Part shown: one piece after another, positions 1 through 63,344 of the stretch
Layout: the number at the start of each line of letters is the position of its first letter
Position numbering within the stretch: position 1 is the stretch's first letter
Assembly (NCBI RefSeq): GCF_014192335.1
Contig: NZ_JACHXU010000003.1
Location: 248,001 to 312,000, forward strand
DNA from: Aporhodopirellula rubra
GTDB lineage: Bacteria; Planctomycetota; Planctomycetia; Pirellulales; Pirellulaceae
Direction of reading: 5' to 3'
Length of the DNA stretch: 64,000 bases
Notes under the pieces: generated by a model
Databases searched by the model: none
Told to the model about the DNA's origin: nothing
What the model saw: the letters and a program-made list of their open reading frames with translations, nothing else
Program-made: the position numbers and the translations under genes

Positions 1-3000
1 AATGCCATTTCATGCTTGGGGGCAACGCGGCGTCGATTTGTGTTGTCGTGTTCTTGGGCGTTGACGCGTTCGGTCTCGCTAGCGTGCGTTGAAGTTCTGT
101 CTTGGGGGTTGCTCTCGGAGTGTGACTGGCCTCTCACGCCGGTCGGTTGCTCTCCGCGTGCTTCCGTTTCGTGAGACTCAACTTCGGTTGTTTCGTCGCG
201 GTCATCTGCCGGATCGGTCGACGCGGGCTCTCCAACGCCATTGGGTTGTGGTTGTTCAAAGGAGCGAATGCGTTCGTTCTGTGCCGATCGCTCGTTGAAC
301 AGCGACGCTTCGTTCAATGCGACGGCATCTTTCGGGTTCAACGATTCATCATCCGCGTTGAGTGACGCCGGGGCTTCGGCGAGGACTCTCTGTAGGTCGG
401 CAACATCGAAGGGTTTCGAGATGTAGTCGTCCATGCCTGCGGCGAGGCAATGTTCGCGATCGCCTTTCATCGCTTCGGCGGTCATTGCGACGATGAATTG
501 GTGTTTCCCTGTCGTCTTTTCGCCTTCCCGAATCACCGTGGTGGCTTCGAAACCGTTCATCTCTGGCATTTGAATGTCCATAAGAACGATGTCGAAATTC
601 TCCCGTTCAAGTGCGTCAATCGCTTCGCGTCCGTTGACTGCCAACTCGACTTGGTGTCCCCATTTATTGAGGAATCCCAGAGCGACCCTTTGATTAACGA
701 TTCCATCTTCGACCAAGAGGATTTTTCGAGGTGCGATTTTGGGATGCGGATCTCTCTGCGGCGGAAGCAAACGTTTCTCATGGTCGACCCCCATGACTTC
801 GAGTACGACGTCGCGGAGTTCGGACGCGATGACCGGTTTCGTTAGATAGCGGTTGATCCCGAGTTCACGCATGCGCGGCGAACTCAAGCCCGCGAACGAG
901 GACGAGAGCATCACGATCGGGCCATGTCGAAACTCGTCTGACCGTTTGACGAGTTGTTCGGCAAAACCGACACCGTCGAGATTAGGCATGTGGTAATCGA
1001 GGAGGATCAGGCCGAACGGATTGCCTTCGGAAATTGATTCGGCGATGACGTCGAGGGCGGTCTCGCCGTCATCCGCCATGACCGGTTTGAGATTCCACAA
1101 CTGCAAAATTTCTTGCAAGATACGACGGTTCGTCGCGTTGTCGTCAACGACGAGCACGCGGGTTCCGGCGATTTTGGAAAAGGCGGCGGGCCGGCGTGGA
1201 GTCTGGTCAGGCGAGATCCCCAGTCGCACGTAGAAATGGAACGTCGTGCCCACCCCGAGTTCGCTTTCGACCCACACTTTTCCGTCCATCATCTGGATCA
1301 ACCGAGCCGAAATCGTGAGCCCCAGTCCCGTGCCTCCGAATCGCCGGGTCGTCGATGCGTCCGCTTGTGAGAACGCCTCGAAGATTTTCTCTTGTTTTTC
1401 TTTCGCGATCCCGATGCCGGTGTCGCGCACTGTGACGTGCAAAACTGCTTCGTCGTCGTCGAGTGTTTCGGGGTTAACGTCAACGACGACCTCACCGCTG
1501 TTGGTGAACTTGATCGCGTTGCCGACGAAGTTGACAACGATTTGACGGAGTCTGCCGGGGTCGCCGATCAATTCGTTCGGAATCCTCGGGTCAATGCGTC
1601 CAGCGAGTTCGAGCCCTTTTTCGTTGGCCTTGAGAGTGAGCAGCTTGATCGCTTTTCCGATGCAGTCTCTTAAATTGAATGTCACCGTATCGAGTTCGAG
1701 TCGACCGGCTTCGATCTTTGAAAAATCTAGAATGTCGTTGAGAAGTCGCAGTAGCGAGTCCGCAGACTGCTGCACCAGCGTGAGGAACTCTCGCTGTTCG
1801 GCGGTCATTTCGGTTCCCGAGAGCAGTTCCGTCATGCCGAGGATACCGTTCATCGGGGTCCGGATTTCGTGGCTCATGTTCGCCAGGAATTCGCTCTTGG
1901 CAGAGTTCGCAGCGTCCGCGATTTCTTTTGCCGCCAGCAATTCTTCGGCCGCCATGCGACGGGCGGTGATATCGCGGCTGATGCCGACCATCCCCATCAC
2001 GTTGCCGTCTTTGCCGAACAACGGAACCTTTGTCGTTAAGAGCCACGTCGATTTACCGTCGGTCGATCGGAAGATGGTTTCTTCCTGGTCGATCAAAGGT
2101 TCGCCTGAACGCATCACGACTTGGTCGTCGGCAACGAAATTGCAGGCCAGCTCCGGAGGTGAGAAATCGTAATCGGTCTTGCCGATGAGCTCGCTCACAT
2201 CCTTGACGCCCAACATGTCGAGGATCGCCTGATTGCCCGTCATGAATCGGCTGTATCGATCCTTGACATAGATGATGTCAGGGATGTTGTTCATGATCGT
2301 CTTGAGCAAGTCACGTTCGCGTGCGAGTTCCGTTTCGGCACGCACTTGGGCGGTCACGTTGCGTGAAATGCCAAACGTGCCAATGATTTCATCGCGATCG
2401 TTCCGCAGTGGCATTTTGGTGGTCGAGCACCACGAGTCCGGTTTGCCTTCGCGGGTTTCCTTTTCGACTTTGCCGATGATGGATTCCCCGGTGCGGATGA
2501 TCCATCGCTCGTCTTCGAGTGCATCGGAGGCATGCTCGTCACCAAAGAAATCGGCATCGGTCTTCCCTACCGCGTCGTCCGCTTTAGCGAGACCAAACAT
2601 CTCCGCCTGCGCTTGGCTGATTCGGATGAATCGACTTTTGCGATCTTTGAAGTAAACCGCGTCAGGAATGTTGTCGAACCAAGCGTCCATCAGAAAACGA
2701 GTGTGCTTTAGTTCAGCCTCTGTCCGCTTTTGCTGTGTCACGTCCCAACAGATCACCTCGACACCGGTGATGGTTCCATCGGAGTCGTATGTCGGAAGGC
2801 GGATGACCTCGAGGAAACAGGCACCGCAGAGTTCCCCGCGAAGCATGTCGAAGTCGAGGATGTCACGGTCGCGAACTTTGGGTAGGTACTCCTCGATCAC
2901 GTGATCAGGTCGCCCGCTCTCCATCACCTTTTGTTCGATCTCGCATCCGACCTGGGCTACTTCCGACGAAAAAAGGTCGTAGTCTGTTTTGCCAATGATC

Positions 3001-49138: not shown

Positions 49139-49471
49139 ATGGCGATCGCCTGTGATGATGTGCTGAGGAAAATGCTGACGCTACGAATTCAGTTTGACGA
49201 GGTCACAGATGAAAACGGACCGCTGCGTGTGATCCTCGGTTAGCACGTTTCGTCAACAAGCGACGGCTTGGCGGCGACCGTTGATGTTCACGCCAAGGCC
49301 AGCGACACGCTGGTGATGCGTCGGTTGATCAGCCACTCGAGCGGTTCGTCGGTCGAGGGAACGAGTCGGCAACGCCGTATCTTGCATTTGGAATTCGCCG
49401 CATCGCCGGAGTTGGCCGACGGCGTTCAGTGGCATGATTCTGTTTCTCCGGCTTTGGACCTTGCTAGATAG
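49139..49471 (+). pseudogene. Remnant of a phytanoyl-CoA dioxygenase family gene
   Basis: One frame reads DDVLRKMLTLRIQFDEVTDE, then GPLRVILG, an in-frame TAG at 49241-49243, then H and ASDTLVMRRLISHSS and RRILHLEFAASPELADGVQW. This is the C-terminal third of the PhyH fold. The TAG sits where the family has the Ser of Gly-Ser-His (TCG to TAG). Another in-frame stop lies at 49136. The N-terminal part, including the iron-binding His-x-Asp, is missing, presumably removed by the defence island. The 3' end abuts the recombinase element. Confidence 0.65.
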
Positions 49472-49865
49472 CTTTGCCGGCGACCAAGCGTTTCCATGCG
49501 GTGCGTTGTTTGGTCCAGTTGGGTTCGATGGCGATTTGGCGGAGTTCTCGTTCTCGGAATTTCGGCTTGATGTCGGTGGTGGGCTGGAGGTCGAGGAGTG
49601 CTTGTTGGATGTCGGGGGCGAGGGTGGAGAGGTTGAGGATTTGCGTGACTCGGGCGCGGGTGATGCCGGCGGTGCGGGCGATTTCGGCTTGGTCTTTGAG
49701 TTGGCCGGTTTCGAGCAAGTCGTCCAGTCGAATAGCGAGCGCCATCAGTTTGGCGATGTGTGGGATTCGCGGTGGTGCAGGTTGTCGGCGGGGACGTTTT
49801 GAAGTGACGCGTTTTCGACCTTGCGGAGCGATAACGAAGTCGTATTGGTTTTTGATGTCGCTCAT
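49464..49865 (-). CDS. HTH (ParB/KorB-like) protein of the recombinase cassette
   Basis: The product is 133 aa from the ATG at 49865, overlapping the recombinase stop (ATGA). Basic N-terminus (GRKRVTSKRPRRQPAPPRIP), then a helix-turn-helix of the KorB/ParB type (DQAEIARTAGITRARVTQIL) and a short C-terminal helix. Such small proteins follow large serine recombinases in planctomycete elements; it may direct or regulate recombination. It is the last gene before the PhyH remnant, so the left end of the element should lie within about 40 bp of its stop. Confidence 0.75.
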   Translation of the reverse strand: MSDIKNQYDFVIAPQGRKRVTSKRPRRQPAPPRIPHIAKLMALAIRLDDLLETGQLKDQAEIARTAGITRARVTQILNLSTLAPDIQQALLDLQPTTDIKPKFRERELRQIAIEPNWTKQRTAWKRLVAGKAI

Positions 49866-51442
49866 CGGCTTTCCTCTTGTTGCTGTGACTTGTGTTCGGC
49901 ACTGAATGATTTCAGTCCCGTGGGGCTGAGCGTGATGGCGAAGGTGCTGTCGGAAGCGTCGTGGTCGATGCGTTCGATCAGCTTGCTGATTAGACGTCCG
50001 CGTTCGCCGTTGGTGAGGTGTTCCCAGAGCGATTGCAAATCCTTGATCGCCGACATGATCGTGTGACGATCGGGGGCCGCCGTGTGGATGTTGTTGAGTT
50101 CTTGTTGCAGTTCGGTGCGGCGGCGGAGGTCACGGGCAACTTGCTCGTTGAGCGACGCCAGCGTGTCGAGCCGTTTGGGTTCGCGTTTGTCGTCGCCGGT
50201 CGGCGTGGCGTAGGCTTCGATCGCTCGTTCGGTGTTTTGCAACGTCAGCGTGAGCGCGGTGAGTTCGTTTTCGAGTCGTTCGCCTTTGTTCCGAACCGTC
50301 TTGCGAACTTTCAAACAGGTTTTCTCGAGAAGGTCTTTGTCGATCGTGAGCGATTGCAGTTGGCCGACAATGAACTGTTCGACTTGGTCGGCCGGCAGCG
50401 ACGGGCGGGGGCATGTTTTATGACCGCCACGGTTCGCTTTGCTGCAAACGTAGTAGCGGTATCGCTTGCCGTTCCCGCTGCCGCCGCTGGTCGTGTGTGT
50501 CATGGCGGAATCACAAGCGACGCAGCGAATCAGTCCGGTCAACACGCCCTGAGTTCGCCCGTGGACGCGATCACCGATGTTGATGCGGTTGGATCGTAGT
50601 TTCTTCTGGACCGCTTGGAAAAGTTCTTCGTCGACGATCGCTTCGTGTTCGCCTTCGTGGACCTCGTCGTGGTAGGTGACCTTGCCGAGGTACATTCGGT
50701 TGGTCAGCAACGTGTGCAGCGTGTTCTTATAGATCGGGCCGCCGCCGATCGACTTGCCCGACTTTGTGATCCACAACTTGGTTCGCCACCCGCGAACACG
50801 CATGCCTTCGATGGTTCCGATCAGGCCTTCGCTCTCCAGATAAAGCTCGAAGATTTGGCGGACCCGTTCGGCTTCGGATTCATTGACGACCAGCTTCTTG
50901 TTTTCGCGGTCAAGGTCGTAGCCGAGGATCGGTCGCCCGCCGAGGTATTTGCCTTTGCGACGAGCCGCGGCCATCTTGTCGCGAGTCCGTTCGCTGATGA
51001 TCTCGCGTTCAAACTGGGCGAATGAAAAGAGGATGTTTAGAGTCAACCGGCCCATGCTGGACGTCGTGTTGAATTGCTGTGTCACCGAAACGAACGAGAC
51101 ATGGAGGTCGTCGAACGTTTTCATGATCAGGGCGAAGTCCATCAATGAGCGGCTGAGCCGGTCGACTTTGTAGACGATCACACAGTCGATCTTGCCGGCC
51201 TTGATGTCGTCCATCAAACGAGTCAACGCGGGACGGTCGATGTTGCCGCCGGAGAACCCGCCGTCATCGTATCGCGTCTCGACTTCGACCCAACCTTCGT
51301 TGCGTTGGCTGGCGATGTACGCCGAACCGGCTTCGCGCTGAGCGTCGAGTGAATTGAATTCTTGTTCGAGGCCTTCGCTGGTCGACTTGCGAGTGTAGAT
51401 GGCACAGCGGATGGTCGTCGGTTCTTTGCTGGGAGCGATCAT
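49862..51442 (-). CDS. Large serine recombinase (resolvase/integrase)
   Basis: The product is 526 aa from the ATG at 51442. The N-terminal resolvase domain has the nucleophile Ser20 in AIYTRKSTSEGLEQEFNSLD, the Arg motif KVDRLSRSLMDFA and FAQFEREIISERTRDK. The recombinase domain follows (GRPILGYDLDRENKKLVVNE). A zinc ribbon comes next (CVACDSAMTHTT...YYVCSKANRGGHKTC), then a C-terminal coiled coil. Enzymes of this size integrate and excise phages and conjugative elements at short att sites. It overlaps DUF2924 upstream and the HTH gene downstream, so all three should be made together. Confidence 0.94.
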   Translation of the reverse strand: MIAPSKEPTTIRCAIYTRKSTSEGLEQEFNSLDAQREAGSAYIASQRNEGWVEVETRYDDGGFSGGNIDRPALTRLMDDIKAGKIDCVIVYKVDRLSRSLMDFALIMKTFDDLHVSFVSVTQQFNTTSSMGRLTLNILFSFAQFEREIISERTRDKMAAARRKGKYLGGRPILGYDLDRENKKLVVNESEAERVRQIFELYLESEGLIGTIEGMRVRGWRTKLWITKSGKSIGGGPIYKNTLHTLLTNRMYLGKVTYHDEVHEGEHEAIVDEELFQAVQKKLRSNRINIGDRVHGRTQGVLTGLIRCVACDSAMTHTTSGGSGNGKRYRYYVCSKANRGGHKTCPRPSLPADQVEQFIVGQLQSLTIDKDLLEKTCLKVRKTVRNKGERLENELTALTLTLQNTERAIEAYATPTGDDKREPKRLDTLASLNEQVARDLRRRTELQQELNNIHTAAPDRHTIMSAIKDLQSLWEHLTNGERGRLISKLIERIDHDASDSTFAITLSPTGLKSFSAEHKSQQQEESR

Positions 51443-51939
51443 TTGGTGCCTCCTTTCTTCGGGTTGAGTTTGAAGAATGCGAATCCGTTGACGTGTGAAC
51501 CGGTGACCTCGTTGGCGATCGCGGAAAGCGTTTCGTAGCGTTTGCCGTTGAAGTTGAAGTCGTCCTGGTTGACGGTGACGGTGATCGTTTGGCGCTTGTA
51601 AATCCTCACTAACACCGTGCCAGCCGGCGGCAAACGTCTGTCACGTCCTGGATCCGGCGCGACCGTGGTGTCGTCGGCGGATTCGACTTGTTGGGTGAAT
51701 GACCGTGGTGGTCGCTTGCGAAGATCGGCATCGTCGGCCATTTCGAGGGCACGCCGGCGTGCTCGTTCGGGCAGTCCGCCCTCCTCGATCGCTTGCATTC
51801 GCCAGATGATCTTTTTGACCAACCAATCGCGGTTGTGGCTGCGCGGTGGGCAGCCGCAAACGTTTTCGTATTTGTCTTTCAGTTCGCCGGTCGTCAACCG
51901 TTTCATGTCGGCGACCTCGCGGGTGATGTTCAAACTCAT
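51439..51939 (-). CDS. DUF2924 family protein
   Basis: The product is 166 aa from the ATG at 51939. The N-terminal half has the DUF2924 pattern MKRLTTGELKDKYENVCG and RSHNRDWLVKKIIWRMQAIE. The C-terminal half has PPAGTVLVRIYKRQTITVTV and FNGKRYETLSAIANEVTG, resembling a small DNA-binding or adaptor fold. DUF2924 genes nearly always sit before large serine recombinases and may be directionality or DNA-binding partners; this is not proven. Its stop overlaps the recombinase start. Confidence 0.88.
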   Translation of the reverse strand: MSLNITREVADMKRLTTGELKDKYENVCGCPPRSHNRDWLVKKIIWRMQAIEEGGLPERARRRALEMADDADLRKRPPRSFTQQVESADDTTVAPDPGRDRRLPPAGTVLVRIYKRQTITVTVNQDDFNFNGKRYETLSAIANEVTGSHVNGFAFFKLNPKKGGTK

Positions 51940-51997: not shown

Positions 51998-52168
51998 TCA
52001 CAGAGAGCGATCGTTTTCGGGTGAGCTCAAGCCGACATGAGAACGATTCGGCGAGTCTTTTTCGGCCGGTTTGTCACGGGCGGCCAACCATCGGGCAACC
52101 CCATTGGCCAGGATCTCGGCAACCTCGCCAAGGTTAGTGTCTACATTTGCGTCGTCATCGTGCGGCAT
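51998..52168 (-). CDS. Small conserved protein at the head of the recombinase operon
   Basis: 56 aa from the ATG at 52168 (MPHDDDANVDTNLGEVAEIL), preferred over 52204 because of the promoter-like element 54 bp upstream and the typical helical start. The helix LGEVAEILANGVARWLAARD resembles short proteins that precede DUF2924 in planctomycete recombinase cassettes. The remaining tail is hydrophilic. It may be a recombination directionality factor-like helper; this is inference. Confidence 0.6.
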   Translation of the reverse strand: MPHDDDANVDTNLGEVAEILANGVARWLAARDKPAEKDSPNRSHVGLSSPENDRSL

Positions 52169-52222: not shown

Positions 52223-52263
52223 GCTACTTGTAGACCTACCGGAAGAGATGCCGAAGTGACGAA
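52223..52263 (-). promoter_or_regulatory. 41-bp promoter-like element, copy A
   Basis: On the minus strand it reads TTCGTCACTTCG, a 7-bp unrelated spacer, then a 22-bp block with GGTAGGTCTACAAG (52223-52244). An oppositely oriented copy at 56696-56736 has the same 22 bases and 11 of the first 12. This copy lies 54 bp before the ATG at 52168 and should drive the recombinase operon. GGTCTA preceded 15 bp earlier by a TTCG box suggests -10 and -35 parts. Confidence 0.75.
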
Positions 52264-52274
52264 TGCGGCCAAGA

Positions 52275-53213
52275 TTATTTCATCATTGGGTGACCGCGGC
52301 GGAGTCGCAGGATGGCTTCGATGTTGATGGCGGTGGACCAGAGCAGACGGAGTTCATCGGCTTGTTTGTCTTTGAGGCAGCGACTGACGTCCGAGGGTGT
52401 CATGTTGGTGGCTCGGGCGAGTTGGCTTTGCGTGGGACGCGGTAGAAGTTCGGGATAGCCGGACTCTTCGCTGGTTCGCATCGCGTGTTCGTACGCAGAG
52501 GCGAGGTGTTGTTTGAGTTCTTTGCGGAGAGCTTCAATCTTGGTGGCTCGGCTGGATCGTTTAGGTTTGGATGGTGATTCGGTGAGTTGGAAATCGAGGA
52601 TTACGTCGTCGACCGCGTCCCACTCGAGAGTGAATGCTTCGTTGGTTATGGCTGCGACTTCTTCGATGGAGCTGACAGTGTTTGAAAGTTGTTCAGTCCA
52701 GTAGCTCGCGACCATTCGCGTCGGTGTGAATACGATCGCTTTGGGGCGAGTGGCGAGATGATCGCGGATCGTGTCGTCGTGTTTGCCAACGCTGCTCCGA
52801 ATGAGGATCAACTCGCGACTGGTTCCATGGAACGCTCGGCGGCCGATTTGCCAGAGTCGTTCGGTTACGATTGGTTGCACGGAGATTCGTACATCCGCGA
52901 ACAGGTGTGTTAGCGTCCGCGCGGTGTCAAAGATCACTTGATCGAGTTGATCCGGGTGCAACTTTTGAATGCCGCAGGTTTCGCAAACGATGAAGCCGTG
53001 GCGATTGCCATGGACATCGTTGCGATAGATCACTTCATGGTCGACCGCGCAGCCGGAGCATTCGCGAGTGACCGCCGGCGTCGTTTGGCGTAGCAACCCG
53101 AGTCGTTGGAACGGACCGAGTTGCGCTTTGTGAACGCGATTGACTTCGTCGACCGTGAAGACCGGCGGGTCAAGCTCCCAGCGACGCCAGACCGGATTGG
53201 TCGTTCGCTGCAC
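52275..53213 (-). CDS. Hypothetical zinc-finger/HTH protein
   Basis: The product is 312 aa from a GTG at 53213, overlapping the upstream gene by 44 bp. It has a possible zinc site (ECSGC at about 51-54, and CETC at about 75-80), a basic linker (SPSKPKRSSRATKIEALRKE), and a C-terminal helix-turn-helix (TQSQLARATNMTPSDVSRCL), so DNA binding is likely. The middle part (IVTERLWQIGRRAFHGTSRE, KAIVFTPTRMVASYW) is not recognised. It is third in the repressor operon and probably a regulator of the element. Confidence 0.65.
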   Translation of the reverse strand: MQRTTNPVWRRWELDPPVFTVDEVNRVHKAQLGPFQRLGLLRQTTPAVTRECSGCAVDHEVIYRNDVHGNRHGFIVCETCGIQKLHPDQLDQVIFDTARTLTHLFADVRISVQPIVTERLWQIGRRAFHGTSRELILIRSSVGKHDDTIRDHLATRPKAIVFTPTRMVASYWTEQLSNTVSSIEEVAAITNEAFTLEWDAVDDVILDFQLTESPSKPKRSSRATKIEALRKELKQHLASAYEHAMRTSEESGYPELLPRPTQSQLARATNMTPSDVSRCLKDKQADELRLLWSTAINIEAILRLRRGHPMMK

Positions 53214-54363
53214 CGTCGATCTCCCAAAGTTTGAGGTGTTTCTGAACGATCTCGGCGCGGTCCGGCGTCAGGCTTCGCAGATTGCATGTCCGTGGTGAGA
53301 TGCGAATCTTGCGATGCCCGGCACTGGCGAACTTGGTGGCCGGAAAGTCGAATCGGATCTCGACCGTTTTCACGCGGAGTTCCCAAAGTTGCTGGTTCGA
53401 TGCCACCAATTCTTCACTGATCGCCCGGTGGATCGTGTCCTCGGGATTGCCTCTGTCGATACCGGTGAACAATGGCCGGTTGGTCACCGGGTTGAGCATT
53501 GAGATCGTTTCGATGCGGGCGCGGATGTTGTCGGCCGGGTCGGTGGCGAGAGTTCGGGTGGGGTCTTTCAAGTGATCGAGTAGGTACGCTTGATTCGGAT
53601 CGAACGGCCCGAGTTTCCAGCCCAACGCGACCTCGGAAAAAATCTGTTCGATGCGTTCCTTACGTGGTTGCTGCAGCGCCGTGCTGAGTTCGATCGAGCC
53701 GACCGCGCGATCGTAGGCCATGATGATTTGCACCGTCGGCCGAATCGCGATCGTCTTCAAATTGCCGCTGTCATCGTGAGTGTTTTCACAGCGAACGTAG
53801 TCATCGGGATTCGCGATGAAGTATTCCATCTCGCCTCGCGTGACTCGTTCGACTGTCACGTTTTGCCCGCGACCGTCATCTCGCAGCAGATTGCCGATCG
53901 CGATCGCCAGGTGTTCTTCGACGTTGCCGGCGAATTTCAGGTTGGCCGGGACGTCGTTGCGGCGTCGCCAATAGTTGCACGTTTCAAGTTTCAAGAACGT
54001 GGACGACGCGGCGAAGATCTCTGGTTCGTTCAAGCGAATCCACATCGCTCGACCATTCAGGTCGAGTTCTTCGGGAACGCGTGACATCAGGTCTTGCACG
54101 TCGAACAATCGAGCAGTGTCGTTGATCGCGGCCATGCCGGCTTCGCAAGCGAACGATCGAATGTTTTGTAAATCGACTTCGACGTCTTTGCGTTCACTGG
54201 GCAACAAATCGGTCAGGCAATTCAGCAGCGGACTGATTTCACGTTCGCCCAATGCGTCCCAGGGAACATCGGCGTGACCGGGGACGTGGCCTTTGAACCA
54301 CGGTCGCAGCAGCGAGTTGGGGACGACGCGGAGCATCGTGGAGATCGGAGCGGGTTGAGGCAT
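53170..54363 (-). CDS. Hypothetical protein of the repressor operon
   Basis: The product is 397 aa from the ATG at 54363, 5 bp after the LexA-like gene. No signal or membrane helix. Segments such as LNEPEIFAASSTFLKLETCN, AIAIGNLLRDDGRGQNVTVE and VTRGEMEYFIANPDDYVRCE suggest a mixed alpha/beta cytoplasmic protein. I recognise no family. Co-transcription with the repressor and the HTH protein suggests a lysogeny-time role, for example immunity or control. Confidence 0.65.
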   Translation of the reverse strand: MPQPAPISTMLRVVPNSLLRPWFKGHVPGHADVPWDALGEREISPLLNCLTDLLPSERKDVEVDLQNIRSFACEAGMAAINDTARLFDVQDLMSRVPEELDLNGRAMWIRLNEPEIFAASSTFLKLETCNYWRRRNDVPANLKFAGNVEEHLAIAIGNLLRDDGRGQNVTVERVTRGEMEYFIANPDDYVRCENTHDDSGNLKTIAIRPTVQIIMAYDRAVGSIELSTALQQPRKERIEQIFSEVALGWKLGPFDPNQAYLLDHLKDPTRTLATDPADNIRARIETISMLNPVTNRPLFTGIDRGNPEDTIHRAISEELVASNQQLWELRVKTVEIRFDFPATKFASAGHRKIRISPRTCNLRSLTPDRAEIVQKHLKLWEIDGAANDQSGLASLGA

Positions 54364-54368
54364 AGCAA

Positions 54369-55022
54369 TTAACTTTCAGACTTTCGAGAAACACCAATGA
54401 CTTTTCCAAGCACACGAAAGTCACTATCAGGCTGAACTTCGATCGGTTTGTACTTTCGATTTTCGGGCATCAACCGGACCACGCCGTCGTCCGTTTCCAG
54501 CCGCTTCACGGTGGCCTCGTCATCAATCATCGCGACAATGATCTCACCGTTTTCAGCGATCAGTTGCCGGCGAACGATCACGACGTCACCGTTTCGCATG
54601 TCGGCGTCCTTCATGCTGTCGCCACTGATCTCCAGTGCAAAGCATTGTCCGCGGCCGACCAAACCCGACGCCACCATCACTTCACCCAGACGGTTTTCCT
54701 CTGCCAACATCGCCGGCCCGGCTTTGACCACACCGATCAACGGCACCGACTTCATGGATCCGATCGACTGGCTCGGCCGGCGGATCACACGAAGGCTGCG
54801 AGCCTTTCGTGGTTGCCGGCGGACGTAGCCTTTGCGTTCGAGTTGCAGGATCAATTGGTGGGCACTGGCGGCGGTGATGCCAAGCTGTTCACCGAGTTCG
54901 GTCATCGTCGGGGCGATGCCGTTGCGGTCGATCGCGGCGGACAGTTCGTCGAGTGCTCGCGATTGACCTTCGGTGATTTCGGTTTGGCGTGGTCGTCCTC
55001 GTCCGGGTTTGGTGGGCTTCAT
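54369..55022 (-). CDS. LexA/CI-type self-cleaving repressor
   Basis: The product is 217 aa from the ATG at 55022. The N-terminal winged helix is LexA-like (MTELGEQLGITAASAHQLIL, KGYVRRQPRKARSL). The S24 peptidase domain has the cleavage site Ala101-Gly102 (VVKAGPAML), catalytic Ser136 (SGDSM) and Lys173 (ATVKRL). RecA-stimulated self-cleavage would relieve repression upon DNA damage. Its position at the centre of the phage-like element, beside repeated sequences, suggests the element's own switch rather than the host LexA. Confidence 0.88.
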   Translation of the reverse strand: MKPTKPGRGRPRQTEITEGQSRALDELSAAIDRNGIAPTMTELGEQLGITAASAHQLILQLERKGYVRRQPRKARSLRVIRRPSQSIGSMKSVPLIGVVKAGPAMLAEENRLGEVMVASGLVGRGQCFALEISGDSMKDADMRNGDVVIVRRQLIAENGEIIVAMIDDEATVKRLETDDGVVRLMPENRKYKPIEVQPDSDFRVLGKVIGVSRKSES

Positions 55023-55057
55023 GATGCGGCTTCCATTGCGGTGAATTCCTGTGGCTC

Positions 55058-55192
55058 GAATTAGCGCTGATATACTTCGTTTCGTGCTACAGCAAATCTA
55101 GTCCTGCCGATTGTTCCGTCTAGGCGAAATTTGCTAGCAAACCCGCAAGTCGTTGGCTGGCAAGGAAATCCATTCTTGAATTCGCGCTGATA
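55058..55192. promoter_or_regulatory. Putative repressor operators upstream of the LexA-like gene
   Basis: GAATTAGCGCTGATA (55058-55072) and GAATTCGCGCTGATA (55178-55192) match at 14 of 15 positions and are exactly 120 bp apart in direct orientation. Between them lies a perfect 12-bp palindrome, TTTGCTAGCAAA (55130-55141). The first copy is 36 bp before the repressor start, as expected for autoregulation. The recognition motif of this protein is unknown. Confidence 0.6.
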
Positions 55193-55230
55193 GATGAGGT
55201 GGACATCGGGGCGGGGCGAGACATTCGGTG

Positions 55231-55755
55231 CTAGGTCAATTCACACAGCAACGGAATGTCGTCGGTTCGAGCGGGCCGAGGATCGTTTGCGAAGCGGGCA
55301 TCGAACGCCGGCTTGGTGCCGAGGTTGGTCGTTTGAATACCTTCGATCGCAGGCACGAATTCAAAGGGCGACGATTGAAACCATGGCTTGCGGTTCTCGT
55401 CGAGGAGGCAGCCCACCAGATACGGCATGACGAAGGTTTCGCGACGCTCTTGTGAGACGACAGCGTAGTACCCGAACTCGCCGAGGCATTCTTTGATCGC
55501 ATCCCAACTCGAGCCCGGCGGTATTACTTGGTCGACGATGATCTTTCGATAGCCGCACAAGAATTGAATCATTTCTTGGTCGGCGAGGATCTCGTCCGTG
55601 ATATCGCAGCGGTCAAGTTCGGGGTTGAGCAGCAGTCGAACCAACTGTCCGAGCATCTTCTTCTCAAGGCGTTCCTCAACAGTCTCGCCGAAGAGTTCGT
55701 AACCGTATTTTCCGAGTGCTTCAGGGTTGTCGGGATCAAAGAGGGCGAGAGGCAT
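55231..55755 (-). CDS. Hypothetical protein of the phage-like element
   Basis: The product is 174 aa from the ATG at 55755 (MPLALFDPDNPEALGKYGYE); a longer open frame to 56496 runs over the divergent control region and the sigma gene and is rejected. It is acidic and helical, with VEERLEKKMLGQLVRLLLNP and FLCGYRKIIVDQVIPPGSSW. No signal, membrane helix or known motif. It is transcribed leftward from the region that also starts the sigma-factor gene. Confidence 0.55.
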   Translation of the reverse strand: MPLALFDPDNPEALGKYGYELFGETVEERLEKKMLGQLVRLLLNPELDRCDITDEILADQEMIQFLCGYRKIIVDQVIPPGSSWDAIKECLGEFGYYAVVSQERRETFVMPYLVGCLLDENRKPWFQSSPFEFVPAIEGIQTTNLGTKPAFDARFANDPRPARTDDIPLLCELT

Positions 55756-55881
55756 CGTTTGGCTCCAAGGTAGATACGAAAGTTGAAAACAGAGTCCGCC
55801 AGAATGACGAGGAGTCGTGACACGTTTGGTCCAAGGCCCGAAAAGTTTTTTCGCCAGCGTCCCCACGAGCGGGTGGGCCGC

Positions 55882-55997
55882 GTTGCAGTTGGTGCGATTT
55901 CGTGCAACTGCAACAACAGAAATCTGGATGCGAAAAGACCGTGTTTTGCTTGGTGAAACGGCAATTCGCAAATTGCAAAGTGCGATTTCGTGCAACT
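55882..55997. promoter_or_regulatory. Repeat-rich divergent control region
   Basis: An 18-bp sequence, GTGCGATTTCGTGCAACT, occurs twice in direct orientation (55892-55909 and 55980-55997; 88 bp apart). The first copy lies inside the inverted repeat GTTGCAGTT (55882-55890) with AACTGCAAC (55905-55913). Another inverted repeat, GCAATT-cgca-AATTGC, is at 55961-55976. The region lies between the leftward gene at 55755 and the rightward sigma gene at 56068, and probably holds operators. Confidence 0.6.
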
Positions 55998-56067
55998 TCG
56001 CCGGAGGGTGTGGCCGCTGCCGTGATGCGGCCTTTTCAAAACACTCGCCAGCCGACGGAGTCCGCTC

Positions 56068-56679
56068 GTGCCCAGCATTTCCGAACCCAAGACCACTCCC
56101 ATCACACCCTCGTTGACGAAGGATCCATTCACCCGAAAGGTCGTCAGCCGCCGCGTTGGACAACTGCTCCGCCGGCCCGAGTTCGCCGGCGACACCGAAG
56201 ACGATTTGACGCAAGACTTCCTCGGCCGACTCGCCGACGCGATGACCCGGCACAGCGACGAGGTCGGCCATCGCAACCCGTTCATCGTGATGATCGTCGA
56301 TCGTTACGTCGCGACGCTCGTTGAACATCGTCAAGCGTCGATGCGACGGACCGAGACGCCGGTGTCGTTGAGCCAGACGATCGTTGACAGCGACATTGGT
56401 GCTGTCGAGATGGCTCAGACGATTGGCGAACACGAACAGGACCGGCGTTTGGAAACTCGCCGACTTGATCAAAACGATTACTCGAACTTGAAGCACGATC
56501 TGGCTGTGGTGCTTTCCCGGTTAACGCCGCAGCAACAAGAGTTCGTGCGTTTGCTCGGCGATCATTCGATTGCCGACATCGCGAGGCTGATGGGAGTGCC
56601 GCGAACGACGCTGAATTTTTGGCGAGCCAAGATTGTCAAAATCTTCGAGGAAGCGGGCCTTCACGAGTACACGTCGTGA
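56068..56679 (+). CDS. Sigma-70-like (ECF-type) factor of the element
   Basis: The product is 203 aa from a GTG at 56068, with ACGGAG 7 bp upstream. The N-terminal half is compatible with a sigma region 2 (RKVVSRRVGQLLRRPEFAGD, DDLTQDFLGRLADAM). The C-terminal half is a clear region 4 HTH: LSRLTPQQQEFVRLLGDHSI followed by ADIARLMGVPRTTLNFWRAK. It would guide host RNA polymerase to element promoters. One copy of the repeated 41-bp element starts 17 bp after its stop, which suggests its target. There is no anti-sigma gene next to it. Confidence 0.75.
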   Translation: MPSISEPKTTPITPSLTKDPFTRKVVSRRVGQLLRRPEFAGDTEDDLTQDFLGRLADAMTRHSDEVGHRNPFIVMIVDRYVATLVEHRQASMRRTETPVSLSQTIVDSDIGAVEMAQTIGEHEQDRRLETRRLDQNDYSNLKHDLAVVLSRLTPQQQEFVRLLGDHSIADIARLMGVPRTTLNFWRAKIVKIFEEAGLHEYTS

Positions 56680-56695
56680 ATTTCTTTGGCCGGGC

Positions 56696-56736
56696 TTCGT
56701 CATTTCGAGGTTTGTTCCGGTAGGTCTACAAGTAGC
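56696..56736 (+). promoter_or_regulatory. 41-bp promoter-like element, copy B
   Basis: It reads TTCGTCATTTCG (56696-56707), a 7-bp spacer and the 22-bp block at 56715-56736 with GGTAGGTCTACAAG. It is the oppositely oriented twin of 52223-52263 and lies 52 bp before the ATG at 56789, first gene of the replication module. Confidence 0.75.
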
Positions 56737-56788: not shown

Positions 56789-57028
56789 ATGCCCGACATT
56801 TCCCTCGACATCGAACGCCGCGTCGCCCTTTCGCTTGCCGTTGGTCGCTACCTGCGATCGGCCGACCGCTTCAACGAGGCGTCGCGTGAATTCACCGGAG
56901 CCTGCAAGTCGCTCCGCAAACGACTCGGCAGCCAGCAACGGTTTGTCGTCCAAGTCGACTGGAAGCATTACCTCGTGACCAGCGATCGCGACGGCAATTT
57001 CGATGTCGAACCGATCGCGTCGCTCTAA
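56789..57028 (+). CDS. Small hypothetical protein, first gene of the replication module
   Basis: 79 aa from the ATG at 56789 (MPDISLDIERRVALSLAVGR). Helical N-terminal half (RYLRSADRFNEASREFTGAC), then a short beta-rich tail (RFVVQVDWKHYLVTSDRDGN). No family is recognised. It starts 52 bp after the promoter-like element and is 36 bp before the Sak4-like gene, so it should be co-transcribed. Confidence 0.6.
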   Translation: MPDISLDIERRVALSLAVGRYLRSADRFNEASREFTGACKSLRKRLGSQQRFVVQVDWKHYLVTSDRDGNFDVEPIASL

Positions 57029-57064: not shown

Positions 57065-57823
57065 ATGACCAACCTACTTGAAACGATCCAGTCCGGCCGC
57101 CAATCGAAGCCGCCCCGTGTCTTGCTCTACGGGGTCGAGGGCATCGGCAAGTCTACGTTTGGCAGTGAAGCACCGAAGCCGATCTTCATTCAAACCGAAG
57201 ATGGGCTGGATGAGATCGACTGTGACCGCTTTCCGCTGGCGACGACGTTTGATGATGTCATTGCAGCGTTGAAGACGCTCGCCAATGAGAAACACGATTA
57301 CGAAACCGTCGTGATCGACTCGCTCGATTGGCTCGAGCGTCTTGTCTGGGACAAGCTCTGTCAGCAGTATGCCGTCGAGTCGATCGAGAAGGTCGATGGC
57401 GGGTACGCACGCGGTTACATGCACGCCCTCTCTCTGTGGCGTGACGTGCTGGATCTGCTCGGGACGCTTCGATCTCGCGGGATGGTGATCGTGTTGATCG
57501 CCCATTCCAAGGTCGAGCGTTTCGAGGATCCGGAATCTTCGCCCTATGACCGCTATTCGCCGCGGCTGCACAAACACGCCGCGGCTCTCATCAAAGAGTG
57601 GTGCGACGCGGTCTTGTTTGCGACGCGAAAGATGCGAACGCAAACCGAGGACGGCGGGTTCAACCGCAAACGCACCATCGCTCACGCCATCGGCAAGGAA
57701 GGCGGCGAACGTGTGGTGCGTGCTTACGGATCGCCGACCTGCGTGGCGAAGAACCGTTACGGCATCGCCGAAGAATTGCCGCTCTCTTGGCCGGCGTTTG
57801 TCGGTGCGATGACCGCCAACTGA
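57065..57823 (+). CDS. Sak4-like phage recombination ATPase (AAA_24/RecA-like)
   Basis: The product is 252 aa from the ATG at 57065. Walker A is LLYGVEGIGKSTFG (about 21-33) and Walker B is TVVIDSLDWLERLV. A RecA-like core follows (GMVIVLIAHSKVERFEDPE) with basic segments RKMRTQTEDGGFNRKRTIAH. Phage proteins of this type bind single-stranded DNA and support annealing or recombination. A DUF669 protein follows, which is the usual Sak4 neighbour. Cytoplasmic. Confidence 0.85.
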   Translation: MTNLLETIQSGRQSKPPRVLLYGVEGIGKSTFGSEAPKPIFIQTEDGLDEIDCDRFPLATTFDDVIAALKTLANEKHDYETVVIDSLDWLERLVWDKLCQQYAVESIEKVDGGYARGYMHALSLWRDVLDLLGTLRSRGMVIVLIAHSKVERFEDPESSPYDRYSPRLHKHAAALIKEWCDAVLFATRKMRTQTEDGGFNRKRTIAHAIGKEGGERVVRAYGSPTCVAKNRYGIAEELPLSWPAFVGAMTAN

Positions 57824-58431: not shown

Positions 58432-58953
58432 ATGCAAAAACTGAAACTGCCTTATCCCCCTTCGGTCAATCGCTACTGGCGGCACGTCGGCTCGCGCGTG
58501 TTGGTCAGCAAGCAGGGGCGAGAGTATCGCACGGCAGTGGGCATGTACCTACATCGAAAGAACGTCAAACCGCTCGATGGCGATCTGGTCGTCGACATCA
58601 CCTTGGAACCACCAGACCGACGCAAACGCGACGTCGACAACGTGCTCAAAGCGATGTTGGATTCGCTGCAAGCCGGCGGTGCGTTCCACGACGACAGCCA
58701 AATCGTGCGTTTGTCGATCGAAAAGCACGCTCCGTTCCCGAAAGAGGGGCGGGTATACGTTTACCTACAAACGCTGCCCGAGTCGATCGACATCTCAGAA
58801 GCGCGCACGTGCCTACGTTGCAACTTCGTCTTTGCCGCAAAGGGACCAGCCAACCGCATTTGTCCCGACTGCACCTTCATCAACAACACACTTCCCAACG
58901 CGATGCCGATCGTGCGAGGGGAAAAGCGACACAACGGGGAGCCATTGAGATGA
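58432..58953 (+). CDS. rusA: RusA-type Holliday-junction resolvase with C-terminal zinc ribbon
   Basis: The product is 173 aa from the ATG at 58432. The RusA core covers about 1-120: LPYPPSVNRYWRHVGSRVLV, PPDRRKRDVDNVLKAMLDSL with the catalytic Asp cluster, and FHDDSQIVRLSIEK. After it comes an unusual zinc ribbon (CLRCNFVF...ICPDC) and a basic tail. It cuts four-way junctions during phage replication or recombination. Its stop overlaps the helicase start (ATGA). Confidence 0.9.
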   Translation: MQKLKLPYPPSVNRYWRHVGSRVLVSKQGREYRTAVGMYLHRKNVKPLDGDLVVDITLEPPDRRKRDVDNVLKAMLDSLQAGGAFHDDSQIVRLSIEKHAPFPKEGRVYVYLQTLPESIDISEARTCLRCNFVFAAKGPANRICPDCTFINNTLPNAMPIVRGEKRHNGEPLR

Positions 58954-60611
58954 AACTCCGCGGTTACCAACAAGCCGCCGTCGATGCGGTCTACGATCAC
59001 CTTCGCAACCGCGACGACAATCCTGTTGCCGTTTTACCAACGGGTGCCGGCAAGAGTCTCGTGCTCGCAAAGATTGCGTCGGACGCCGTGAACCAATGGA
59101 ACGGCCGCGTTCTGATCTTGGCTCACGTCAAAGAATTGCTGGAACAAAACGCCGACAAGGTTCGTCGGCTGTGTCCCGACATCAACGTCGGTTTGTATTC
59201 TGCTGGACTGAAAAAGCGTGACACCAACAATCCCGTGTTGGTCGCCGGGATCCAGAGCGTTTACAAGCGAGCATGTGATCTCGATCCGTTCGACTTGATC
59301 GTCGTCGACGAAGCCCACCTGATCTCAAAGAAGGGCGATGGCATGTATCGGCAGTTCCTTGCCGATTGCAAAGTCATCAACCCGAACGTACGAGTCATCG
59401 GTTTGACCGCGACGCCGTTTCGTCTCGATTCCGGCATGATCTGTTCGCCGGACCACTTTTTGAACAGCATCTGTTACGAGATCGGCATCAAGGAACTGAT
59501 TCGTGACGGTTACTTGTGTCCGCTAGTTTCCAAAGCTGGTGTCAACCGAGCAGACTTTGGCGATCTTCGCGTTCGTGCTGGCGAATTCGTGACGGCGGAT
59601 GTTGAACAACTGGCCGGCGATGACGCCCTCGTGTCCGCCGCGTGTGCCGAGATCGTTGAACTGACGTCTGATCGCCGGGCCGTGTTGATCTTTGCGTCGT
59701 CGGTGGCACACGGGCGTCAAGTCGTCGAAGCGTTGCGAGACAATCACGACATCGAATGCGGCTTCGTGACCGGACAAACACCGGCGGGCGAACGTGACGA
59801 GTTGCTCGCTCGTTTCCGTGGCGACGCACCGACATCATTGCTGGCCGACGAGCCGCTGCGATTCCTTTGTAACGTCAACGTGCTGACGACTGGCTTCGAC
59901 GCGCCGCGAGTCGATTGCGTCGTGATGCTGCGTCCGACCATGTCGCCGGGCTTGCTCTACCAATGCGTCGGCCGCGGTTTCCGTCTGCATCCCGACAAAC
60001 AGAACTGCTTGGTCCTCGACTTCGGTGGCAACATCGAACGCCACGGACCAATCGACCAAATCAAACCCAAGGACAAAGCCGCTCGCCCTGGCCAAGAACC
60101 GCCAGCGAAGGAGTGCGAGAAGTGTCACGCCCTGGTCGCTTGCGGATACGCGAGCTGCCCCGAGTGCGGTCACCCGTTCCCGCCACCGGACCGCGAAGCC
60201 CACGACGCCAAAGCCAGCGAGGCCGGTGTGCTTTCCGGTGAAGTTACAGACACGGACTATGACGTTCACGATGTGAGCTATCGCATCCACCGCAAACGTG
60301 ACGCCGACGATGACGCGCCGCGATGCCTGCGAGTCGATTACATGATCGGCCTGGATCACTTTCAAAGCGAGTTCATCTGCATTGAGCATTCGGGCTATGC
60401 AAGACGCAAAGCCGAAGCGTGGTGGCGAGATCGTTGTCTTGATCCGTGTCCAAGCGACGCAGACGAGGCAATGGACCTCGCCGCGGCCGGACTACTGGCT
60501 GCGCCGGAGTCCATCACGGTTCGATCCATCGCCGGTCAGAAGTACGACCGCATCATCAAACAAACGCTTGGCGAACTGCCGCACGAAGCCCTCGAAGAAG
60601 CCCCGTTCTAA
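58950..60611 (+). CDS. SF2 DEAD/DEAH-box helicase of the element
   Basis: The product is 553 aa from the ATG at 58950, which overlaps the rusA stop; longer in-frame extension to 58419 would run through rusA in another frame and is rejected. Motifs: Q-motif region KLRGYQQAAVDAVYDHLRN, Walker A LPTGAGKS (29-36), VVDEAHLIS, GLTATPFRLD, TTGFDAPRVDCVVMLRPT and QCVGRGFRLH. A zinc ribbon near the C-terminus (CEKCHALVACGYASCPECGH) probably binds DNA. It resembles phage replication helicases of the RadD-like group. Confidence 0.9.
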   Translation: MKLRGYQQAAVDAVYDHLRNRDDNPVAVLPTGAGKSLVLAKIASDAVNQWNGRVLILAHVKELLEQNADKVRRLCPDINVGLYSAGLKKRDTNNPVLVAGIQSVYKRACDLDPFDLIVVDEAHLISKKGDGMYRQFLADCKVINPNVRVIGLTATPFRLDSGMICSPDHFLNSICYEIGIKELIRDGYLCPLVSKAGVNRADFGDLRVRAGEFVTADVEQLAGDDALVSAACAEIVELTSDRRAVLIFASSVAHGRQVVEALRDNHDIECGFVTGQTPAGERDELLARFRGDAPTSLLADEPLRFLCNVNVLTTGFDAPRVDCVVMLRPTMSPGLLYQCVGRGFRLHPDKQNCLVLDFGGNIERHGPIDQIKPKDKAARPGQEPPAKECEKCHALVACGYASCPECGHPFPPPDREAHDAKASEAGVLSGEVTDTDYDVHDVSYRIHRKRDADDDAPRCLRVDYMIGLDHFQSEFICIEHSGYARRKAEAWWRDRCLDPCPSDADEAMDLAAAGLLAAPESITVRSIAGQKYDRIIKQTLGELPHEALEEAPF

Positions 60612-61139: not shown

Positions 61140-63344
61140 ATGGCTCCCACCGATCAAGCCGACGTCCGATCGCAAGTCGCGATCTATCGCCAGCGCGGCT
61201 GGTTCTGTGTTCCGCTGCGCCCACGGTCGAAGTCGCCGTCGCGTCGTGATTGGACAAACCTGCGTTTGCAACCCAGGGCGATTCCCGAGAACAGCAACAT
61301 CGGCATTATCCTTGGCGAACCATCCGGTTGGCTCGTCGACGTCGACCTCGATTGTTCCGAAGCAATCGAATTGGCCGACAGCTATCTGCCTCCAACGCCG
61401 TCGATCACCGGCCGGCCGTCGGCATTGCGATCGCATCGTTGGTACATCGCCACAGGCGCGAACACCGAAAAGCACCAAGACCCCAGCGACGGTTCGATGA
61501 TCGTCGAATTGCGATCCACCGGAACGCAAACCGTCGTCGGTCCAAGCATTCATCCCGAAGGTGAACCGTACGATGTTCTCGATGCCGAACCAGCAACCGT
61601 TCCCGCCCCCATGCTGGCCGCGTGCGTGAAAGCTCTCGCAGACGCTGTGATTGTCAAACGTGGCGTGAGCTTGCAGCTTGCGAAGCCTGAGCCAAGACCA
61701 GAACCGAAACCATCGCAAGCTGGAAGCTTACGCCACCGCGACATCGAACCCCGAGCGATTGCGTACCTCAACTCCATGCCGCCGGCGATCTCCGGCAGCA
61801 GCGGTCACTCGCAAACCTTCGCCGCGGCGACCGCTCTGGTGCACGGATTCGGTATCGAGCCCGATCGAGCGTTGACGATCCTGCAAACCGAATACAACCC
61901 GCTATGCACGCCCCCGTGGTCCGATCGCGAACTGCAACACAAGATCAACCAAGCCGCAACCAAGTCACACGACCGCCCGTTCGGATGGCTTCGCGATGAG
62001 GGACCGAACGAATCGGTCGGCGAAACGGTCGACCTCAGCGGCTTCATGGTCGCACCAAAGACCGTTGCCACCAAAGCCACGGAACCCAAGCTCGCCGACT
62101 GTCCCGATCCCGGCCACCTGCCCGAACATCTGTTCAACGTGCCGGGCTTCGTTAGCAATGTGATGAAGTTCACGCTCGCCAATGCACCGTACCCCAACGT
62201 CGCGTTGGCGTTCTGCGGGGCGATGGCGTTGCAGTCGTACCTGGCGGGCCGCAAAGTCGCGACGACCGGTGATCTACGAACCAACATCTATCTGCTCGCG
62301 CTCGCCGGCAGCGGCACTGGCAAGGAATTTCCCCGCAAAGTCAATTCACAGATCCTATTTCAAATCGGCGAATCGCAATCGCTCGGTGACAAGTTCGCGT
62401 CCGGCGAGGGCATTCAAGACGCACTCGCCCGCAGCAGCAAGATGCTGTTTCAAAACGACGAGATGGACGGTGTGCTGCGACAGATCAACCTCGACCGCGA
62501 CAGCAGCCGCGAATCCATCCCGAACATTTTGTTAACGCTCTACACCTCCGCCGGCGACTTCTATCCGCTGCGAGTGAAAGCCAACCAGAAGGAAGGCGGC
62601 TACGTCGACCAACCGCACCTAACGTTGTTCGGCACCGCAACGCCAAAGTACTTTTATGAATCGCTTTCACAGCGAATGCTCACCAACGGCTTCTTCGCCC
62701 GTCTGAACATCATCGACGTCGGCAAGCGTGGCAAAGGCCAAACGCCGGGATCGGCTCGTGACCTGCCCGATGAGATCCTCGAAACCGCGAAATGGTGGGC
62801 CGACTTCCATCCCGGCGGCGGCAACTTCATGGCCGTTCACCCGAAACCGCTGCGCGTGCCACTGACGACCGGAGCCGAAACTGCCATCACGGATCTGCGT
62901 CTGCAAACCGAGGTCGAATACGACAAAGCCGATGATGCCGGCGACGAAGTGGCTCGTGCCGCCTGGAGTCGCACATGCGAACACGCCAAGAAGCTCGCTT
63001 TGATCTATGCGGTCAGCGAAAACCATCTCCAACCCCAGATCACGCTCGATGCCGTTCGTTGGGCCAGCGAGTTCTCACTGCATCAAACTCGTCGGCAACT
63101 TTATCTCGCGTCCGTCCACGTTGCTGAGAACCCGTTTCACAAAGAGTGCTTGAAGTTCATGAAACGTCTTCAAGACGAAAGCTCCGGCGTGATCAGTCGT
63201 CGCCAGATCATGCGAGCAATGAAAATGAAATCGAACGAATTTGACCAGGTCGTTGATACGCTCGTTCAACAAGAGCAGATCAAGCCCGTCTGGATCGAAT
63301 CGAAGACCAAGCCCGGTAAGGGCTATCAGATCACGGTCGATTAA
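61140..63344 (+). CDS. Primase-polymerase fused to a DUF3987-like ATPase (phage replication protein)
   Basis: The product is 734 aa from the ATG at 61140. The N-terminal Prim-Pol domain (about 12-190) has the metal site Asp67-x-Asp69 in WLVDVDLDC, then SHRWYIATG and ELRSTGTQTVVGPSIHPEGE. A linker with Pro/Lys (about 185-205) follows. The ATPase domain has Walker A AGSGTGKEFP (about 385-395) and LFQNDEMDGVLRQINLDRD. A winged-helix-like C-terminus (SRRQIMRAMKMKSNEFDQVV) follows. It should start replication of the element; an iteron-like repeat cluster lies right after its stop. Confidence 0.87.
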   Translation: MAPTDQADVRSQVAIYRQRGWFCVPLRPRSKSPSRRDWTNLRLQPRAIPENSNIGIILGEPSGWLVDVDLDCSEAIELADSYLPPTPSITGRPSALRSHRWYIATGANTEKHQDPSDGSMIVELRSTGTQTVVGPSIHPEGEPYDVLDAEPATVPAPMLAACVKALADAVIVKRGVSLQLAKPEPRPEPKPSQAGSLRHRDIEPRAIAYLNSMPPAISGSSGHSQTFAAATALVHGFGIEPDRALTILQTEYNPLCTPPWSDRELQHKINQAATKSHDRPFGWLRDEGPNESVGETVDLSGFMVAPKTVATKATEPKLADCPDPGHLPEHLFNVPGFVSNVMKFTLANAPYPNVALAFCGAMALQSYLAGRKVATTGDLRTNIYLLALAGSGTGKEFPRKVNSQILFQIGESQSLGDKFASGEGIQDALARSSKMLFQNDEMDGVLRQINLDRDSSRESIPNILLTLYTSAGDFYPLRVKANQKEGGYVDQPHLTLFGTATPKYFYESLSQRMLTNGFFARLNIIDVGKRGKGQTPGSARDLPDEILETAKWWADFHPGGGNFMAVHPKPLRVPLTTGAETAITDLRLQTEVEYDKADDAGDEVARAAWSRTCEHAKKLALIYAVSENHLQPQITLDAVRWASEFSLHQTRRQLYLASVHVAENPFHKECLKFMKRLQDESSGVISRRQIMRAMKMKSNEFDQVVDTLVQQEQIKPVWIESKTKPGKGYQITVD

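Follow-up and report, generated by a model that had tools for sequence, protein, structure and literature searches.

The sigma factors of the lytic phages 7-11 and phiEco32 resemble those of the extracytoplasmic function (ECF) type, and Xpf, encoded by the defective prophage PBSX of Bacillus subtilis, is a sigma-like factor for one late operon. According to two papers (PMC4331800, PMC5333181), phage-encoded sigma factors serve several phage promoters in 7-11 and phiEco32; phage ECF sigma promoters with an extended −10 element and no recognizable −35 element are described in one of them (PMC5333181), and middle and late classes in the other (PMC4331800). Some temperate phages carry sporulation-like sigma genes (PMC9429907). 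Here we describe a prophage of Aporhodopirellula rubra, part of which lies in the stretch of 64,000 nucleotides that was analysed (contig NZ_JACHXU010000003.1 of assembly GCF_014192335.1, positions 248,001 to 312,000, forward strand; referred to here as the window). A two-box site repeated in this prophage is, very probably, a promoter recognized by the ECF-like sigma factor that the prophage itself encodes, and this one sigma factor would serve as a lytic switch for the integration/excision, replication and portal/head operons.

As in 7-11 and phiEco32, a phage-encoded sigma factor appears together with several phage promoters. The differences are that the phages described here bear integrases, that their site has a −35-like box at fixed spacing and that, in place of middle and late classes, the integration, replication and portal modules carry one site class. 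Like Xpf, the factor is encoded by a prophage, but three modules and several coevolved site classes go with it. No paper on a temperate-phage sigma factor that acts on the integration, replication and portal modules together was found in a literature search outside which most subscription journals and all bioRxiv preprints lay. The prophage suggests a temperate-phage switch from one sigma factor to several lytic modules, and its relatives present a natural case of sigma/promoter coevolution, with nine site classes as drawn (three being closely similar) within a single group of phages.

The two-box site and the sigma factor

The conserved site comprises 40 bp with two boxes and is present in three copies. 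Ahead of the integration operon is site 1 (52223..52262, − strand; −35-like CGTCAC at 52256–52261 and −10-like TAGGTC at 52233–52238), and ahead of the replication operon is site 2 (56697..56736, + strand; −35-like CGTCAT at 56698–56703 and −10-like TAGGTC at 56721–56726). Site 3, with 2 mismatches, is located beyond the window, with the terminase gene on one side and the portal gene on the other (contig C3:322959–322997; C, G and L numbers denote contigs, genomes and loci). An earlier, sequence-only reading of the window had described a twin element, in which a block at 52223–52244 is repeated perfectly and inverted at 56715–56736, a second box (52252–52263 and 56696–56707) agrees at 11 of 12 positions, the 7-bp spacers differ between the two window copies and one copy begins 17 nt after a sigma-like gene. 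Each of these details was confirmed, the last from the sigma stop at 56679 (reading frame 56068–56679) and the start of site 2 at 56697; the count of two was wrong, given the third copy. Both copies had been said to aim at the first gene of a module, as they do, and the copy before portal does likewise. The distances of 54 and 52 bp to the start codons hold for sites 1 and 2, but at site 3 the distance is 30 bp, and the idea of a fixed distance was abandoned.

The hexamers of the window sites are separated by 17 bp, and the same box spacing is kept in relatives (ungapped alignment). Promoters of ECF-type sigma-70 factors have two boxes spaced 16–19 bp apart, a range that includes the 17 bp seen here; the boxes may act as −35 and −10 elements, at which RNA polymerase would bind and start transcription.

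The 21-bp core occurs twice in the window at ≤3 mismatches and not at all in 100 shuffles, and a strict pattern applied at ≤3 mismatches to the whole genome (8.55 Mb) gave 3 matches, namely sites 1–3 (reversed-pattern control, 0). Another genome scan at ≤3 mismatches gave seven places: the 3 prophage sites, a fourth candidate, one site in a probable satellite (see below) and two on contig C10. The sequence-only reading had named scatter at unrelated places as a result that would speak against it, and only the two C10 places are unexplained. These (C10:233613–233643 and C10:255950–255980) are 3-mismatch matches outside prophages and may be host targets or chance; one of them was read in L141, with a low score. 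The fourth candidate is weaker, on the opposite strand and outside the window (C3:319252–319282, L004), ahead of small genes upstream of terL.

Located directly before site 2 is the ECF-like sigma factor gene (56068..56679, + strand; 203 aa), identified by profile and model matches, including one to Sigma70_r4_2. Among 29 homologs, Pfam recognizes Sigma70_r2 in 18 (E ≤ 0.01) and Sigma70_r4_2 in 11, and, run against the PDB, the family profile hits ECF sigma factors, the best at E = 2e-5 and SigW at E = 1.6e-4 (positions 16–181). The AlphaFold2 model (predicted local distance difference test 75.6; predicted template modelling score 0.39; domain arrangement uncertain) contains sigma2-like and sigma4-like helical parts. 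Of these, residues 19–92 superpose on pro-sigmaK (Z 8.0, root mean square deviation 2.4, 68 aligned residues), and residues ~132–201 on several sigma4 structures (Z ~8), although a few non-sigma helix-turn-helix proteins score equally. The PDB matches listed for the model are mostly sigma factors, with Foldseek E values of 2e-3 at best. With the Pfam matches of the homologs and the model taken together, both the sigma2 and the sigma4 domain of ECF-type sigma-70 factors are present. The sigma factor had no match among INPHARED phages.

Sigma homologs (E ≤ 1e-5) are found in 46 of the 241 genomes of the family, the weakest of them perhaps being host ECF factors. From 70 listed sigma matches we took 41 regions, the window included; the rest are second copies, short contigs and weak matches, one of which (G095:C181) served in the test of further homologs. 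All matrix scans were ungapped, so that sites with other spacings would escape. With an in-sample matrix, 40 of the 41 regions have a site close to the sigma stop, at −31 to +34 relative to it, scoring low in G217 and G054b; with the own clade left out of training, 31 of 41 sites beat all 500 random windows and 36 rank in the top 1%. A frozen matrix found the site in 21/21 IMG/VR loci, among which L113 and L117, at least, duplicate phages sampled before. Among further homologs, limited to those with a locus (ten from other families of the order and one, L246, from this family), the site exceeded the other sampled windows of its own locus in 10 of 11, L270 being missed. The expectation of the sequence-only reading that homologous elements with the sigma gene would carry the motif was thus mostly borne out.

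Site classes and their covariation with the sigma factor

We divided the sites into nine classes, of which A, D and E are close; calls among these three are less certain than the rest. The classes are A, the class of this phage (TCCGG-TAGGTCTA), B (TTGG-AAGGTCTA), C (CCGGG-TATTCCAA), D (CCGGG-TAGGTCAA), E (CCGGG-TAGGTCTA), F (GAG-TAGTTCAA), G (TGGG-TTGTTAA), H (GCGTG-TAACCCTA) and I (AAGGCCTATA). Site copies within one phage carry that phage's variant. In leave-clade-out scans of the 480 bp before the DUF2924 gene, the top-scoring 40-mer is of the class of its phage in 23 of 26 regions (identity of the boxes to the sigma-side site 0.65–0.94, with some low scores; 0.35–0.45 in the three misses), and before portal in 13 of 13 (identity 0.74–0.97). 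Where the integration module is inverted (G091, G097), so is the site. The fourth candidate site matches the class of its own phage in the six B phages and in G082; it was not found in G048a, G036a or G038, the first of which has a match of another kind. First-round detection matrices were weighted by the phage's own site and are biased, and our conclusions rest on the leave-clade-out, frozen-matrix and Mantel tests.

The covariation is concerted across the modules. Integration sites are more like their own sigma-side site than in shuffled pairings (0.743 versus 0.549, n = 26), as are late sites (0.841 versus 0.639, n = 13), both with p = 1e-4, the floor of the test. In partial Mantel tests, in whose correlations shared ancestry is still contained, the integration site (n = 26) follows sigma given DUF2924 (0.57, against 0.03 for DUF2924 given sigma) and sigma given the integrase (0.61; reverse −0.05), and the late site (n = 13) follows sigma given portal (0.75; reverse −0.12), with p = 0.0002 for sigma, again the floor, in each case. 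The three failed integration sites were kept in the identity and partial Mantel tests and left out of the domain split. That split was made for 29 phages at their distal sites, where the −10-like part covaries with sigma2 given sigma4 (0.51, p = 0.0005; reverse −0.12) and the −35-like box, weakly, with sigma4 given sigma2 (0.20, p = 0.034; reverse −0.01). Distal copies thus covary with sigma rather than with adjacent genes and divide by sigma domain, which supports the proposal of the sequence-only reading that the repeat is a sigma-factor site. Its suggestion that integration/excision and replication are co-activated is upheld as a reading, with the portal module added to a list that was incomplete.

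From these observations we infer that the sigma factor is made first and joins the host RNA polymerase, and that the resulting holoenzyme would start the integration/excision, replication and portal/head operons together; the timing and the trigger of sigma synthesis belong to the proposal. Before the sigma gene, no site above threshold is listed and a different footprint is present, so the sigma factor probably comes from a separate promoter, in a feed-forward rather than an autoregulatory arrangement.

Several results, in addition to the shared ancestry in the Mantel correlations, weigh against the site being a promoter for this sigma factor. The Sigma70_r4_2 match of the window protein (E = 2e-5, 24.6 bits) is just below the Pfam cut-off of 25.7, region 2 has no Pfam match in that protein itself, and fold matches of the size obtained (Z ~8) are common among helical proteins. 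Sigma homologs in G011 (L065) and G403 (L270) have no site after the gene, the site of G210 has no CGTCA box, and 5 of 41 regions are outside the top 1% when their own clade is left out. No site was found in the 480 bp before DUF2924 in G154, G048b and G207; these have candidates ~720 bp upstream, only one of which is above the shuffle maximum. The fourth candidate departs from the class of its phage in E phages and in two F phages, G146 and G206b, in which it reads as D/A-like. Nor is the domain split clean: the variable spacer correlates too (0.17, the baseline), the stretch past the −10 box on distal sites follows sigma4 (0.32), which was not predicted, and the sigma-side −35-like box gives 0.27 with sigma2 and 0.16 with sigma4.

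Lying on either side of a LexA-like repressor gene and holding a short GTAG-N2-CTAC palindrome in their core, the sites could instead be operators of a LexA-like or other immunity repressor, in the manner of lambda OL/OR flanking cI, with induction freeing the operons. Speaking for such operators and against a sigma promoter, the sigma-side sites of 11 LexA-bearing phages correlate with LexA given sigma at 0.82 (p = 0.007) and with sigma given LexA at 0.49. However, when two distant phages are dropped, the nine close ones give 0.87 with sigma given LexA and −0.39 with LexA given sigma, and distal sites, in the 10 LexA-bearing phages available, favour sigma (0.70 versus 0.45 for LexA). In G190, LexA and the integrase are 84% and 92% identical to those of this phage, yet the sigma factor is 42% identical and the site is of another class. 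Sequences of a different kind make up the footprints upstream of the LexA-like gene, and the site itself lacks symmetry and has a direction. At E ≤ 1e-3, a LexA-like homolog turned up in 11 of the 41 regions, some of which are short contigs; of the 23 integration sites, 13 belong to regions in which this search returned none, which makes a LexA-like repressor unlikely as the reader, while leaving room for another, unrelated repressor. The sites lack the pairing with a cognate repressor that marks operators of the LexA/CI type, and we regard the operator explanation as quite improbable.

Very improbable, in our judgement, is recognition of the site by a host sigma factor or by an activator that is not a sigma factor, the phage sigma gene being only linked to it. 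In its favour, the conserved stretch extends ~9 bp beyond the −10 hexamer. Against it, this host contains two sigma-bearing prophages, with sigma factors 41% identical, one having class A sites and the other class B sites, a difference that tells against any one host factor reading both. Distal sites, moreover, follow sigma after conditioning on neighbouring genes, also by domain. The two inverted copies flank 4.4 kb in an element with a serine recombinase, and could on that account be taken for sequences that act in replication or recombination, such as terminal repeats, attachment (att) sites or part of an invertible segment; with a third copy 18 kb off, before portal, a direction that follows the downstream operon, and tandem same-strand copies of differing class in other elements, this explanation is barely credible.

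The class F −10 region (GTAGCTCAAGGGGTAGAG), in the integration site of L075 (G147) and others, resembles a tRNA D-arm. Mimicry of tRNA was considered and rejected, as the stem is lost in other classes by eye, and the likeness is probably a coincidence.

Small elements without a sigma gene

Phage-inducible chromosomal islands, including the Staphylococcus aureus pathogenicity islands, are small integrative elements with an integrase, a regulator and a primase and without a virion set, and are induced by repressor removal. As described in PMC8628076, Ogr of phage P2 activates genes of the satellite P4, a small element with a primase-helicase and an AlpA regulator, and late genes are activated by Ogr/delta. 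The small integrative elements described below, which carry the two-box site, are probably phage satellites, a term that, like promoter, we draw from gene content, sites and covariation. They would share with P4 the action of a helper transcription factor on satellite genes; they differ in that the proposed helper factor is a sigma factor, in that sites for two or three classes of helper stand in tandem and, where an integrase was identified, in its being a serine recombinase. From the chromosomal islands, small and integrative likewise, they would be set apart by promoter arrays matched to helper sigma classes.

Across the 241 genomes, class A sites at ≤3 mismatches numbered 13, spread over 8 genomes, against 0 for the control. 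In five of the genomes one such site lies outside known sigma-bearing phages, and A. rubra itself has one on C21, in a small sigma-less element (L140:2915–9711) with tandem sites before an HTH_17/primase operon. Tandem sites, mostly of differing class, precede and are directed towards the same type of operon in L135, L136, L137, L138, L139, L175, L177, L178 and L181. The L140 element encodes an HTH_17 regulator (below the Pfam cut-off), a primase-helicase, a DUF2924 protein, a serine integrase and a ParB-like protein, and homologs of some or all of these (the primase-helicase by tblastn) are present in other elements. L135, L139, L140, L175, L178 and L181 encode a serine recombinase, and L176 has a match of 26%; the search for an integrase was negative in L136, L137, L138 and L177. 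Searches of 11 regions by tblastn for homologs of sigma, terL, portal, capsid and tape measure, which unrelated virion genes would escape, returned only two weak fragments, a 17-aa portal-like one in L138 (E = 0.004) and a 46-aa sigma-like one in the flank of L140 (E = 0.002). Within the queries used, then, the small elements have neither virion genes nor a sigma gene, as expected of satellites.

A survey based on the regulator covered 26 loci, 25 of them placeable, at a threshold of 17.6, the maximum over 26 shuffled regions. It gave 25 sites in the sense direction and 0 antisense in 36.0 kb upstream, and 0 in 36.5 kb downstream; wider unshuffled regions contain stray hits above 17.6, up to 22.5 (antisense, L181). 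At least one site is present in 12 loci and at least two in 10. Of the 12, L193, L194, L199 and L217 had been found through the site and are not independent, as the other eight are. The 13 loci with none include six with regulators of <45% identity and one cut at 2 bp, and also the close relatives L197 and L200.

Two or three different classes, by best class, are combined in 9 of the 25 loci, and five further elements found by site or primase have mixed classes (G170, G171, G106, G223 and, weakly, G066). In the element of A. rubra, a single class A site and a single class B site occur together, and these are the classes of the two prophages resident in that genome. In genus g42, whose prophages are of classes C, F and H, with one of class D (L246), the elements of G090 and G106 agree in the order of their sites (C, then H, then F), with successive sites ~113–115 bp apart. 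Over elements in genera with known helper classes, L246's D not counted, 16 of 28 sites match a helper class of the same genus, against 9.8 when permuted (p = 0.02), and 12 do not.

These arrangements suggest that satellites probably use tandem sites to be switched on by several helper phages. We lean towards a scheme in which each promoter of an array responds to a sigma factor from a different helper, so that any one of several helpers suffices (an OR gate), and in which sigma and promoter classes co-diversify while satellites collect the local ones. Within the literature covered, no paper was found on satellites whose tandem promoters correspond to the sigma classes of different helpers, and how satellites might serve several helpers becomes directly testable.

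For the element of A. rubra, att repeats amount to 10-bp candidates, with none of ≥11 bp at the prophage flanks searched; its empty site was not found, and G158 has a related element near the same flank. In IMG/VR, the L140 primase had no match, and the other 11 relatives of the L181 primase have no site above threshold. Stretches in L140:2699–2841, L135:2502–2982, L139:17031–17192 and L174:76–210 resemble the region before the prophage terminase at about 78–82% DNA identity (78–80% over 136–165 bp) and could bear on packaging. An IMG/VR phage contig, L233, has class C and class F sites in tandem (2577, 2780) before portal, as if a phage too answered to two sigma factors; its 22.9-kb record has no match to the class C sigma factor and, being a fragment, is uninformative on this point.

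Gene content and control regions of the prophage

Transcribed from the − strand, the integration operon begins with a gene for a 56-aa protein (51998..52168), homologs of which are found in 3 of 40 other regions (G068, G190, G143). It is followed by genes for a DUF2924 protein (51439..51939; Pfam E = 6e-37), a large serine recombinase, the integrase (49862..51442; Pfam Resolvase, Recombinase and Zn_ribbon_recom), and a PHROG 'recombinase' protein with a weak ParB-HTH match below cut-off (49464..49865). The replication operon (+ strand) encodes a 79-aa protein (56789..57028), a Sak4-like annealing protein (57065..57823; PHROG E = 6e-46), a DNA helicase (58950..60611; PHROG E = 7e-97) and a DNA primase (61140..63344; PHROG E = 5e-64). 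Between the two operons is the LexA-like S24 repressor gene (54369..55022, − strand; Pfam Peptidase_S24 1e-31, LexA_DNA_bind 7e-13). Beyond the window are the terminase (PHROG 5e-29) and portal (PHROG 2e-66) genes, and a 1308-aa protein is taken for the tape measure from its length and place. As the element combines a serine integrase, a LexA-like repressor, a sigma factor, replication genes, terminase, portal and a putative tape measure, we refer to it as a prophage. The same sigma gene is present in the IMG/VR record UViG_2824432718_000003 (44,236 bp), and two related phages have the hosts TBK1r (CP036432.1), which we take to be Stieleria magnilauensis (Pirellulaceae), and SV_7m_r (CP036272.1).

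Upstream of the LexA-like gene are two TATCAGCGC(T/G)AATTC repeats (55058..55192, − strand), unlike the footprint upstream of the sigma gene. A cascade from LexA to sigma was considered and rejected, since the sequences that mark the region upstream of lexA (TTTGCTAGCAAA, TATCAGCGCTAA) are not those found upstream of sigma (two copies of GTGCGATTTsGTGCAACT). Upstream of the sigma gene are two identical 18-bp direct repeats, GTGCGATTTCGTGCAACT (55892–55909 and 55980–55997, + strand; 2 found against 0.17 expected), which may form a control region of sigma, as possible operators for a regulator that would set the switch; these repeats are kept, with small changes, in 8 close relatives.

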